Shown here in pieces: positions 42,895-47,511 of a stretch of 64,000 nt of DNA. A program made the position numbers and the translations under genes. The DNA lies in contig DUMA01000033.1 of the NCBI GenBank assembly GCA_012840135.1, forward strand, positions 16,011 through 80,010. Reading direction: 5' to 3'. Below the pieces are notes generated by a model, which worked only from the letters and a program-made list of their open reading frames with translations, was not told the origin of the DNA and did no database searches. Positions within the stretch are counted from its first letter, which is position 1. Each line of letters starts with the position of its first letter. The stretch is from Thermoanaerobacterales bacterium. GTDB taxonomy: Bacteria > Bacillota > Thermosediminibacteria > Thermosediminibacterales > Tepidanaerobacteraceae.

Positions 42895-44187
42895 TCACAT
42901 CTTCGATGATTCAAGTTTTACTCTGTCTTTGTACTTATTAAAAAGTATATTCGCAGTCTCGTTGGATACCGCTTCCTTCACCCTGCTCTCCAGGGCGAAT
43001 CTATCCACCGCTCTCGCCCCTTCTTCGGGGTCCACTAGTTTTCCGGGGCCTCCCACACATCCTCCGATGCAGGCCATACCTTCCACAAAATTGGCCTCCG
43101 TGGTGCCTTCTTCCACCGCATCCAGTATCTGTTTGCACTCCTTTATGCCGTTGCCATGGCGGGCTTTGACATCGGTGCCCGGCCGAAGGTTTTTAATGCT
43201 GGCTATGATGGCTGCAGAAACTCCGCCAGTATGTCCATATATCCTTCCATCGTGGGAAGCATCGGTAATAAGTGATTTTACATCAATGTTTGCCGGGTCT
43301 ATTTTATAGGCTTCAAAGATTGCTGCCAGTTCCTCAAAGGTTAGCACACAGTCCACCGCATCTTTTAGCTCGGGCAGTTTTGCTTCAGTCTTTTTTGCAA
43401 TACAAGGCCCTATGAAAACCACCTTGGCGTTTTCATCTTCAGCCTTTATAAACCGGGCGATAGCCACCATGGGAGAAACCGAATCGGACACGAGACCTGC
43501 TATCTTCGGCCTGTATCCTTTGGCCATGCGGACAAAAGGCGGACAGCAGCAAGAGGTAATCATGAACTTATCTCCCCGATCCATACGTCGCAAAAATTCT
43601 TCCGCCTCTTTCACCGTAATCATGTCGGCTCCAAGAGCCACTTCCAGCACATCGTAAAATCCCAGCATTAAAAGGGCGGTCTTTAACTGTTCTTCACTCG
43701 TCTTTCTCCCAAACTGCCCGGCAAAAGCCGGTGCCAGCACAGCGTATACCCTTTTGTGCTTTTTTATGAGGTTTATGGTCTGGGCTATCTCCGCCTTATC
43801 GGTTATTGCTCCTTCCGGGCAGGCAATGATGCAAAGGCCGCATGAGAGGCACCTGTCTATATCTACCGCAGGCTTTCCCCTTTCATCCATGCGGAGGGCG
43901 CCGGGCTCGCAGGACATGCTGCAAGCGCAGTCCTCCTTATATCCTTCACAGGCCTTTTCTATGATAGATATAAATGGGAAATCTACCTCTTGAGGAATCT
44001 CGCCCTTTTCGAAGGTGCCAAGGGCTGCCCTCACCCTGGCCTCGGCTTCTTCCCGGCTTATTTCTCCTCCAAGGGAATCCATTACCGCACCGTATACATC
44101 CTGAAGATTATCCAGCTTTCTGGCGTGTTCGGCCACCAGCCTGTATATCCTGCGCCTCAATTTTATTTTTTCTTCCTTCATATTCAT
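42895..44187 (-). CDS. [FeFe]-hydrogenase-like protein with N-terminal ferredoxin domain
   Basis: CLSCGLCIIACP; TSCCCPPF, GPCIAKKTE, EGMACIGGCVGG H-cluster-type motifs; start trimmed to MNMKEEK. Confidence 0.88.
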   Translation of the reverse strand: MNMKEEKIKLRRRIYRLVAEHARKLDNLQDVYGAVMDSLGGEISREEAEARVRAALGTFEKGEIPQEVDFPFISIIEKACEGYKEDCACSMSCEPGALRMDERGKPAVDIDRCLSCGLCIIACPEGAITDKAEIAQTINLIKKHKRVYAVLAPAFAGQFGRKTSEEQLKTALLMLGFYDVLEVALGADMITVKEAEEFLRRMDRGDKFMITSCCCPPFVRMAKGYRPKIAGLVSDSVSPMVAIARFIKAEDENAKVVFIGPCIAKKTEAKLPELKDAVDCVLTFEELAAIFEAYKIDPANIDVKSLITDASHDGRIYGHTGGVSAAIIASIKNLRPGTDVKARHGNGIKECKQILDAVEEGTTEANFVEGMACIGGCVGGPGKLVDPEEGARAVDRFALESRVKEAVSNETANILFNKYKDRVKLESSKM

Positions 44188-44262: not shown

Positions 44263-44293
44263 AAAAAAAGAGGGTGCCTTTATAAAGCACCCT
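44263..44293 (-). terminator. Terminator immediately after the candidate selenoprotein stop codon
   Basis: GGGTGCTTTATAAAGGCACCCTCTTTTTTT. Confidence 0.9.
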
Positions 44294-44582
44294 ACTCTTC
44301 TAAAAATGTCAGATGCTGCCATCCGTATTCGGGCAACATAAATTTCAGCTCTTTTGAACCGGGCTCCAGTTTATTTAAGACTTCATTGTCCACGTATATT
44401 TCTATGTCTTCTTCCACTTTAAATTTTACATACTCATCCTGCTTTTCCGGTTTGCCCGCCAGACCTGACGGGGCATAGAAGGCATTTCATCACCCGTGGA
44501 TGTTCAATCGCTTTGTGATATTCATTACACCGCCACGCTCCCTGATGTAGTTCTTCAACCATGAGGAAGTATCCGCCTTCAT
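44292..44582 (-). CDS. Candidate selenoprotein of unknown family with tandem in-frame UGA codons
   Basis: ATG after AGGAGG; MKADTSSWLKNYIRERGGVMNITKRLNIHG-UU-NAFYAPSGLAGKPEKQDEYVKFKVEEDIEIYVDNEVLNKLEPGSKELKFMLPEYGWQHLTFLEE*; SECIS-like hairpin at 44453-44475. Confidence 0.65.
44453..44475 (-). promoter_or_regulatory. Putative bacterial SECIS hairpin
   Basis: UGCCC(C)GUC-AGGUCU-GGCGGGCA; bulged C, AGGUCU loop; loop GGU 25-27 nt from second UGA. Confidence 0.65.
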
Positions 44583-44655
44583 ACAGCATCCTCCTTTGTC
44601 TGATTTACAGCACCGCTATCGATGCACGGGTAAAATTCTATCTTCGACCTCTTCA

Positions 44656-44853
44656 TCAGCCGCCGCTCATGATGTGAACAACGTCAACATTATCTCCGTC
44701 CTTTAACATGTATGTGGCATACTGGTCCTTGGGCACGACCCGACCGTTCACTATCACGGTTATCATCCGGAAAGTGTATTTCTTTTTTTGCAAAACATCT
44801 TCTACAGTCATTCCTTCCTGGTATTCCATGTTTTCCTTGTTTACTTTTATCAA
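44656..44853 (-). CDS. MoaD/ThiS-like sulfur carrier protein
   Basis: 65 aa beta-grasp-like, ends in GG. Confidence 0.85.
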   Translation of the reverse strand: MIKVNKENMEYQEGMTVEDVLQKKKYTFRMITVIVNGRVVPKDQYATYMLKDGDNVDVVHIMSGG

Positions 44854-44942: not shown

Positions 44943-47099
44943 TTATTGATATTTGCTGATAAGTTCCACCACATCCGGAAAATCGATGCCCAGTTTTTTC
45001 ACAGTCTCCAGAGTGGGCACTCCGTCCGGCGTCCAGCCCTTGCGCCTGTAAACAGCATCACACAGTTTTTGATACTGGTCTTCCCTGTATTCCCTCAGCA
45101 TCTTTATTTTTTCTTCAACGGTTTTACCTTCTATATCGTATCCAAGTTCTTTCAACTGTTTATCGTACCTTTCCGCTCTGGACTCATATTCTTCTTTTGT
45201 CACGGGACCCATGAACCGATAAGGCGGAATATCGTATTTTCTTGTCCCGTAGCCCATTTTAAGGTTAAAAATCCTCTGGAAATTATAAACTCTTTCTGAC
45301 TGCAGTATCAGTTCTTCTTTCGTAATGTTCTTACCGGTAACCCCGTTAAATATATCCACATAGTTCCTCACGTGTTCTGGAACTTTTGCAGGTTCATCGG
45401 TAAGCCCGTTGTCCGCAGGCTCGATATCATTCCACGGCAGTTTGCAAAGGCCGTTTAATCCGAACCATGTGCGGAACATGGGGAAATAATACAGCGCCTG
45501 AGCCTTATCCTCAAAAGTCGGAATCTGTTTGTTCACCATATCCATAAATATGAGCCATGCCTCATCATGCTGCGGCCCCTTATTGGCCAGCGCATATCCT
45601 CCCTGCTGAGCCAGGGATTCCTTGCTTACATACTGTGAGCATTCCAGACCTTTGACTTCCATCCCTATATCGTTGACCAGGCCGGGGTCCGCTCCGTATT
45701 CCTCCACAAAGATTTTCTTCATGCGCCGTACGCCCTGGCCGGCAATCCTGCCAAAGCCATAGCCGTTACCCATCTGATGAATCAGTTCCATTGCCGCTTC
45801 TTTATTGCCGAATTTAAGTTCCAGACCGCCGGTTATTTCTTTGTTTATAATTCCCCTTTCATAGCATTCCATGACAAAAGCCATTAACGTTCCTGTGGAA
45901 ATGCTGTCGATACCGTACGTGTCACAATAAAAGTTGGCTTCGATCACATATTCGGGATCAAATATACCGCAGTTGGCACCCAGACCTGCTATGGTTTCAT
46001 ATTCGGCTGCATCCACACATACTTTTTGCCCTTTATATGGACCTGTCTTTAGCTCGAAATTATCCACCGCTTTGGCACAAGCCATGGAGCAGCCGTACCA
46101 GCAGCCGTCCGGCAGGCCCTGGGTAAAGTACTTTTTGAATACATCCGAACTTAATTTTATGGCATCGGGATGAGAACCGTACTGGAAATTCATAACAGGA
46201 AGCAGATCATAGTCGTTCATTATTTCCGTCAGGTGCGCCGTCCCCACTTCTCTCATGCGGTTTTGTACCTTATCCAGATCATGGATTTCCCTGTGGAGTC
46301 TGAGGCCTGCGTTTATTATTTTCTCTTTATCGGCAGGACCATTGGTATCTCCCTTCACACCGGTGTACTTTACCACCAGAGCTTTTATCTTTTTATCCCT
46401 GAAAACAGTACCTATACCGCCTCTTCCTGCCTGTTTCAATCTGGGCACTCCGCGCTTTAAATCAAAGAAAGAAAAGTTGAGCAATCCTATCAGAGTGTTT
46501 TCCGCTCCGCGCCCTGCCGAGACCACCGCCACATTCCTTTTGTCCTCTTCAGAATCGGCGTACATGGCAGTAAATTGCTCTGCCGCCAAATGAGAGTCTA
46601 CAGCTTCTTCAGGAGCTTCCTCAATGGTTACATAACCATTGTTTCCATCAATATATATAATTACATCTTTTTCGGCCTTGCCCTGTATTTCAAGGGCATC
46701 CCATCCTGAAAACTTCAAGAGGGGTCCGAAATATCCCCCTACATTGGAATCAATTACGGTACCCGTAATAGGAGAAAGGCTTACCACCAGAGACTTGCCC
46801 GCTCCGGGGTACTGAGTGATTCCCCCTATAGGTCCCGTGGAGATTATTATCTCATTCTCCGGGTCGTTCCATTTGGTTTCACTAGTGACGGCATTCCACA
46901 AATACCACAACCCGAACCCCCTGCCGCCGATGAAAATATCTTTCATCTGCTGGGTTACTGGTTTTGACTTTATGGTGTTGTCACATAGATTTATATAAAG
47001 GGTCCGGTTGGTATAACCCTTCTGGACTTTTCCCAACTCATAATCCATTCTCGCCAGAAGCCTATGAGCTTTTTTCATTTCGATTACGTTCTCCACCAT
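44943..47099 (-). CDS. Aldehyde ferredoxin oxidoreductase family protein
   Basis: IFIGGRGFGLWYLWN; GPIGGITQYPGAGKS; AOR family domains. Confidence 0.95.
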   Translation of the reverse strand: MVENVIEMKKAHRLLARMDYELGKVQKGYTNRTLYINLCDNTIKSKPVTQQMKDIFIGGRGFGLWYLWNAVTSETKWNDPENEIIISTGPIGGITQYPGAGKSLVVSLSPITGTVIDSNVGGYFGPLLKFSGWDALEIQGKAEKDVIIYIDGNNGYVTIEEAPEEAVDSHLAAEQFTAMYADSEEDKRNVAVVSAGRGAENTLIGLLNFSFFDLKRGVPRLKQAGRGGIGTVFRDKKIKALVVKYTGVKGDTNGPADKEKIINAGLRLHREIHDLDKVQNRMREVGTAHLTEIMNDYDLLPVMNFQYGSHPDAIKLSSDVFKKYFTQGLPDGCWYGCSMACAKAVDNFELKTGPYKGQKVCVDAAEYETIAGLGANCGIFDPEYVIEANFYCDTYGIDSISTGTLMAFVMECYERGIINKEITGGLELKFGNKEAAMELIHQMGNGYGFGRIAGQGVRRMKKIFVEEYGADPGLVNDIGMEVKGLECSQYVSKESLAQQGGYALANKGPQHDEAWLIFMDMVNKQIPTFEDKAQALYYFPMFRTWFGLNGLCKLPWNDIEPADNGLTDEPAKVPEHVRNYVDIFNGVTGKNITKEELILQSERVYNFQRIFNLKMGYGTRKYDIPPYRFMGPVTKEEYESRAERYDKQLKELGYDIEGKTVEEKIKMLREYREDQYQKLCDAVYRRKGWTPDGVPTLETVKKLGIDFPDVVELISKYQ

Positions 47100-47118
47100 T
47101 TTAACACCTCCGCTTAGT

Positions 47119-47511
47119 TTATTTTTCATCCATGTAAATGGCACCTGTGGGACATACTCTCGTACATGCACCGCAGGCAATGCATTTTATAGGCTCGTTT
47201 ATGTCCGGATGAGTAAACATGGCATTGTTTGGACAAAAGCCTACGCAGATGTAGCATCCGACGCACTTTTTGTCATCAACCCTTACAGCACCATTTTTGG
47301 CCTGGTACATCGCTTCCGTGTTGCAAACCGGTATGCATTCGCCGCAGTGGTTGCAGACAAAGATCTCATAGCTTCCCGATTTTTCAGCCTTTTCTTTGAT
47401 TCTTATAGCCGACTTTTTCGGGTCTTCGACCCTGTAGAGGACTTTGGAACATGCCGTCATGCATGCTCCGCAACCGTTGCAGAGTTCGGGTTTCGTCTTT
47501 ACAATCTTCAA
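47119..47511 (-). CDS. Polyferredoxin-type 4Fe-4S protein associated with AOR
   Basis: CNGCGACMTAC, CNHCGECIPVC, CVGCYICVGFC, CIACGACTRVC. Confidence 0.93.
   Translation of the reverse strand: MKIVKTKPELCNGCGACMTACSKVLYRVEDPKKSAIRIKEKAEKSGSYEIFVCNHCGECIPVCNTEAMYQAKNGAVRVDDKKCVGCYICVGFCPNNAMFTHPDINEPIKCIACGACTRVCPTGAIYMDEK

Follow-up and report, generated by a model that had tools for sequence, protein, structure and literature searches.

A putative bacterial selenoprotein with two adjacent selenocysteine codons and one SECIS hairpin, encoded beside an aldehyde:ferredoxin oxidoreductase gene

A short minus-strand frame of a Thermoanaerobacterales bacterium, interrupted by two consecutive UGA codons, is very probably a real selenoprotein gene in which both codons are read as selenocysteine (Sec31-Sec32). 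A preliminary description had proposed a small selenoprotein, possibly with a Sec-Sec motif, here, and the comparative sequence evidence, namely gene reality, conserved UGA codons, Cys/Sec exchange in relatives, a SECIS-type hairpin and the presence of Sec machinery, supports that proposal well. The frame is called the UU gene below. A more specific reading, in which one SECIS element directs two adjacent Sec insertions and creates a Sec-Sec pair, as a diselenide or bis-selenolate, in an IscA-like protein devoted to a tungsten aldehyde:ferredoxin oxidoreductase (AOR), is offered tentatively, at somewhat less than even likelihood. Coordinates refer to the window, i.e. the whole 64,000-nucleotide stretch of contig DUMA01000033.1 that was analysed (Table 1).

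The UU frame runs from ATG (44582-44580) through 30 codons in all, the UGA pair and 64 further codons to TAG (44294-44292), and its translation is a 96-residue protein, MKADTSSWLKNYIRERGGVMNITKRLNIHG-UU-NAFYAPSGLAGKP.... These elements, together with the upstream AGGAGG, all lie where they had been placed before. The TAG had also been described as abutting a strong terminator; the terminator is present, and the stop codon shares its first base. The half that follows the UGA codons had been said to lack a nearby start codon, and its first in-frame one is indeed more than 20 codons downstream.

Table 1. Features of the UU gene and its neighbours, in window coordinates.
Feature	Position	Strand	Details	Basis
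Ferredoxin with several 4Fe-4S motifs (AorA-like)	47119..47511	-		Fer4 families
Aldehyde:ferredoxin oxidoreductase family protein	44943..47180	-		PF02730, PF01314
ThiS/MoaD-like sulfur carrier	44656..44853	-	C-terminal GG	TIGR01683 65.6 bits, PF02597
Shine-Dalgarno AGGAGG	44590..44595	-	7 nt 5' of UU ATG	Sequence
UU selenoprotein gene (predicted)	44292..44582	-		Translation; 11 orthologues elsewhere with both TGAs
UGA1 (Sec31)	44490..44492	-		Column is Sec/Cys in nearly all paralogues
UGA2 (Sec32)	44487..44489	-		Column is Cys, Sec or small/other residue in paralogues
Bacterial-type SECIS hairpin, 6 bp	44455..44472	-	Loop AGGUCU 44466-44461	Sequence, covariation, folding
Intrinsic terminator GGGTGC-loop-GCACCC-T7	44263..44292	-	Ends AOR cluster	Sequence
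[FeFe]-hydrogenase-like protein	42895..44180	-	Past terminator	PF02906; TIGR04105 362.8 bits, cutoff 450

The orthologue set comprises 12 sequences, the window and 11 other genomes, ten of which were obtained from a search of 199 related genomes. The eleventh, Alkaliphilus peptidifermentans DSM 18978, was the only find of a GTDB contig scan made with a single-sequence query. Identity to the window protein ranges from 78 down to 34%, and TGA TGA occupies the same two columns in 12/12 orthologues. Sequencing error, and with it the possibility that resequencing would remove the stops, is excluded by the double TGA in 12 independent genomes. Genome G014 carries a divergent UU copy, the thirteenth in all. 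Synonymous sites are saturated in the comparison of the window with its sister species, where dN is 0.13-0.14 on either side of the UGA codons; dN/dS, where measurable, is about 0-0.34 for both halves. Judged from these codon comparisons, both halves of the gene are under purifying selection. They are also conserved together, contrary to the earlier caution that they might prove unrelated or decayed.

The machinery for Sec insertion, listed in the preliminary description as something to look for, was found in full in the host genome: selD, selA and selB are clustered, with tRNA-Sec adjacent to them, and selD carries an in-frame UGA of its own. Every UU genome examined has SelB above cutoff and a tRNA-Sec, and the UU gene was seen only in Sec-decoding genomes. 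Four members of the window's family (G004, G006, G010 and G012) have neither SelB nor tRNA-Sec above cutoff and have no UU gene. In G004 the AOR (91%), ThiS-like and hydrogenase-like genes are kept, and the stretch from the ThiS stop to the terminator cleanly lacks UU. A second AOR copy of G004, split in two frames, adjoins its own polyferredoxin (L098 9102-11520, minus strand). The ThiS-like gene just upstream of UU in the window itself ends in tandem TGA TGA (44658-44653, minus strand), which must be a true stop, since the C-terminal GG of the carrier has to be free; it is a useful internal control for the UU gene. A variant genetic code is ruled out by the full Sec machinery together with this ThiS-like gene ending.

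At the protein level, NF041239 is the only NCBIfam model that detects the UU protein, at 34.3 bits (E 1.8e-8), short of the curated cutoff of 40 bits, and the protein is probably unannotated. The window protein has no match in Pfam, PF01521 included; IscA/HesB matches come from family members only (PF01521 best 8.8e-5, below the gathering score; NF038090 3.6e-6). The NF041239 'CC/Se motif family (seleno)protein' (Moor_selen_rel) resembles UU in length, dyad position and layout; 18/18 aligned members match it at E<0.01, and the Cys/Sec dyad stands in the family alignment. Members of that family are described with one Sec in a CxxU motif (PMC13188914), whereas in UU both dyad codons are UGA and the sequences form a separate group. 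An AlphaFold2 model of the UU protein (pLDDT 93) places the dyad in a turn between two long strands (30-32). Its best match in the PDB is IscA 1s98 (Foldseek E 0.015, TM about 0.43), and the first five matches are all IscA/SufA-type proteins with modest scores; a profile search of the PDB found nothing. For the paralogue L002 alone, comparison with an IscA-type structure (E 0.027) gives an alignment that puts Sec31 on a conserved Cys, and Sec31 would replace the first conserved Cys of the IscA/HesB domain. In HesB-like selenoproteins (TIGR01911, NF038090 IscA_HesB_Se) and IscA/SufA proteins (PF01521), Sec or Cys likewise stands at the first conserved Cys position, and the order of secondary structure is similar. 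UU differs from these in its weak sequence similarity, in having two adjacent Sec and not one, and in lacking the C-terminal CGC cluster-binding motif of IscA, its sequence ending EYGWQHLTFLEE. The protein is a remote relative of NF041239 with IscA/HesB similarity and is not wholly new.

The neighbours named in the preliminary description, AOR, a ThiS-family carrier and a ferredoxin with several 4Fe-4S motifs, are borne out by family matches (Table 1); the true start of AOR is probably downstream of the listed one. The [FeFe]-hydrogenase-like gene is apparently a separate transcription unit, and its product has TSCCCP, GPCIAKK and MACIGGC motifs, scores below the group B1 cutoff and is syntenic with the AOR cluster. 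The order polyferredoxin-AOR-ThiS-UU-hydrogenase-like is found in eight genomes (the window, G001, G014-G018 and G020), and in most orthologues of the class UU is the last gene of the polyferredoxin-AOR-ThiS cluster. In the AorABCDE operon of Aromatoleum, genes for a four-cluster ferredoxin, AOR and a MoaD-like protein stand together as here, and the paper mentions no selenocysteine (PMC6365974).

Given this setting, the UU protein may assist the tungsten AOR as a selenolate-based redox or metal-binding accessory, a role that we consider about evenly balanced. Slightly below even likelihood is placed an alternative, itself compatible with Sec-Sec, in which the protein binds metals or metalloids or acts as an Fe-S carrier without being specific to AOR, and its place beside AOR reflects local operon history. 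The remote IscA/HesB similarity favours such a carrier, as do the surroundings of some UU copies. Four copies, those of Alkaliphilus, G069, G022 and G024, do not adjoin AOR; in G022 and G024 the same AOR is encoded at another place in the genome. In Alkaliphilus the copy belongs to an ArsR/ArsA-like cluster, and that of G024 adjoins a NifU-like gene (names from sequences). The AOR link thus holds in only part of the UU family. G004, moreover, retains the operon in the absence of UU, so AOR does not need UU in every genome. Against the carrier reading stand the gene order kept in eight genomes and the way UU tracks AOR across the class: AOR orthologues (72-94%) occur in all UU-carrying members, class members with a close AOR orthologue all carry UU except Sec-less G004, and three genomes of the same order (G013, G019 and G021) have neither that AOR nor UU. 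In addition, the second, divergent UU gene of G014 directly follows another AOR gene. In Alkaliphilus (L020 5580-10417) the UU gene is flanked by an ArsR-type regulator on one side and, on the other, by ArsA-like ATPases, a thioredoxin-like protein and a permease; an arsenic role of this copy is possible.

Further information on the two UGA positions can be drawn from the paralogues, gathered by searching 398 genomes of the phylum with a profile and extracting the matches. Across the family, almost every sequence has Sec or Cys at position 31; at position 32 some have Sec or Cys and others residues such as Ala, Thr or Val. The preliminary description had asked for homologues with Cys or Sec at these positions; both occur at both, and all four dyad combinations (UU, UC, CU and CC) are present. 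Genome G069, for example, has two neighbouring copies, TGC TGT (Cys-Cys) and TGC TGA (Cys-Sec), plus a separate UU copy. The Sec-Cys, Cys-Sec and Cys-Cys paralogues thus indicate that Cys and Sec are exchangeable at each of the two UGA positions, and position 32, being Cys or Sec in paralogues, would be a natural Cys/Sec site and not a stop. The UU sequences cluster as one group in a tree built on few columns (SH-aLRT 86), in whose alignment the dyad columns of a few rows, L067, L047 and L065 among them, were set by eye. The window's own genome contains a paralogue with a single UGA and GGGU-A-G-C (L002, G000:C51:9602-9868, plus strand; 86.6 bits to NF041239), which is predicted from its sequence to be a second selenoprotein of the family. 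At L068 (1555-984, minus strand) Cys-Cys and Cys-Sec paralogues adjoin, and the Cys-Cys copy retains a degenerate SECIS-like hairpin. Two Sec-Cys members, L016 and L055, lie about 5 kb apart on one contig (G058:C67), which suggests local duplication.

The hairpin with the AGGUCU loop was found as previously described, its GGU 25-27 nt from the second UGA and 28-30 nt from the first. In the window it reads CCCGUC-AGGUCU-GGCGGG, the loop beginning 23 nt past UGA1 and 20 nt past UGA2. A hairpin of the form CCC[G/A]UC-loop-GRYGGG is common to the 12 orthologues, with every pair forming in 12/12. Pro38 is encoded only by CCG or CCA, whose last base matches C or U at the second base of codon 42, while all four Pro codons are in use at Pro45 close by; when Pro38 was drawn from the Pro45 pool, full pairing arose in 25 of 200,000 trials, kinship being ignored. 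Within the main clade only two pairs vary (26/500 shuffles). When the divergent UU copy and a Cys-Sec paralogue are added, two-sided changes are seen in three of the six pairs and 0/500 shuffles reach the covariation score; in this test the divergent copies were put in register by their loop, and the shuffle count does not amount to a phylogenetic probability. A separate SECIS for UGA2 is rejected, no second conserved structure being present between -90 and +60 in the 12 orthologues. A scan of Rfam gave no relevant match.

In the E. coli fdhF SECIS the apical loop is GC-AGGUCU-GC, with GGU 22-24 nt from the UGA and a bulged base in the stem. The UU hairpin likewise lies downstream of UGA and has a short stem with the apical loop AGGUCU; fdhF, however, serves one UGA, and the UU loop is 3 nt (UGA2) or 6 nt (UGA1) further away. 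The bacterial SECIS (bSECIS) model asks for a loop of 3-9 nt that has G within its first two positions and for a distance of 16-37 nt to the UGA (PMC13188914). Both UU spacings fall within this range and the hairpin agrees with the model, with an MFE of about -10 to -11 kcal/mol against a threshold of <= -7.5; among the orthologues, that of Alkaliphilus is less stable (-6.7). Sec-Cys paralogues have a different hairpin, of the GCCUGC-CGUGNNN-GCAGGC type, whose loop begins 23 nt past the UGA; the Cys-Sec paralogue of G069 has CCCAUC-AGUUAU-GAUGGG, with the loop 20 nt past its UGA. Thus each of the two UU spacings is used alone by a single-Sec relative.

Decoding could follow the standard bacterial route, with SelB and Sec-tRNA binding the single hairpin. 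Since the stem begins 17 nt past UGA1 and 14 nt past UGA2, the hairpin would stay folded during decoding of UGA1; the ribosome would then advance one codon and be served a second time. One hairpin would then serve both UGA codons, and double incorporation would be efficient. It is improbable, by comparison, that a single Sec is made, with UGA1, where paralogues most often have Sec, being decoded as Sec and UGA2 being read by near-cognate suppression or mostly terminating. Paralogues with one Sec are the commonest form in the family, and double recoding from one hairpin is mechanistically demanding. Yet UGA2 is invariant in the 12 orthologues despite saturated synonymous sites, its column is Cys or Sec in many paralogues, including the Cys-Sec copy with a same-type hairpin at equal distance, and the 64 C-terminal codons are under purifying selection.

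Very unlikely, too, is a selenium-sensing switch in which the double stop would serve mainly to shut the protein off when Sec-tRNA is lacking, and not to place two functional Sec residues. Tandem stops do terminate tightly, and UU is last in the operon, followed by a transcription terminator. Both positions, however, are Cys/Sec sites in paralogues that have no double stop, so the residues themselves appear to be selected. By these comparisons the UU frame is far more than a chance arrangement, given TGA TGA in 11 other orthologues, the dN/dS values and the sole conserved, covarying hairpin. A pseudogene, split genes or two unrelated frames joined by chance, suggested by the two in-frame stop codons, has a likelihood close to nil and is refuted by conservation in the orthologues, selection and synteny across many genomes.

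No adjacent Sec-Sec motif is listed for any of the 119 prokaryotic selenoprotein (sub)families catalogued in 2026 (PMC13188914). The algal PDI_e has a GUGUU motif with consecutive Sec-Sec (PMC7539508) and was the only earlier case in the literature searched; it shares this pair with UU but is a PDI protein, unrelated in sequence and decoded in the eukaryotic manner. In the same literature neither a characterised bacterial protein with adjacent Sec-Sec nor a bacterial case of one SECIS serving two adjacent UGA codons was found; subscription literature was outside its scope, so priority is not proven. UU-type genes fall below current family cutoffs, and annotation probably misses them.

In the usual picture, one SelB-SECIS complex acts per UGA at a set distance. 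If the proposed reading is true, the UU gene would be the first bacterial tandem-Sec site, with one SECIS reused in a single ribosome passage. It would provide a test of SelB reloading on a SECIS within the span of one codon, and the UU gene and its single-UGA relatives in each register may serve as a natural test of SECIS spacing tolerance.
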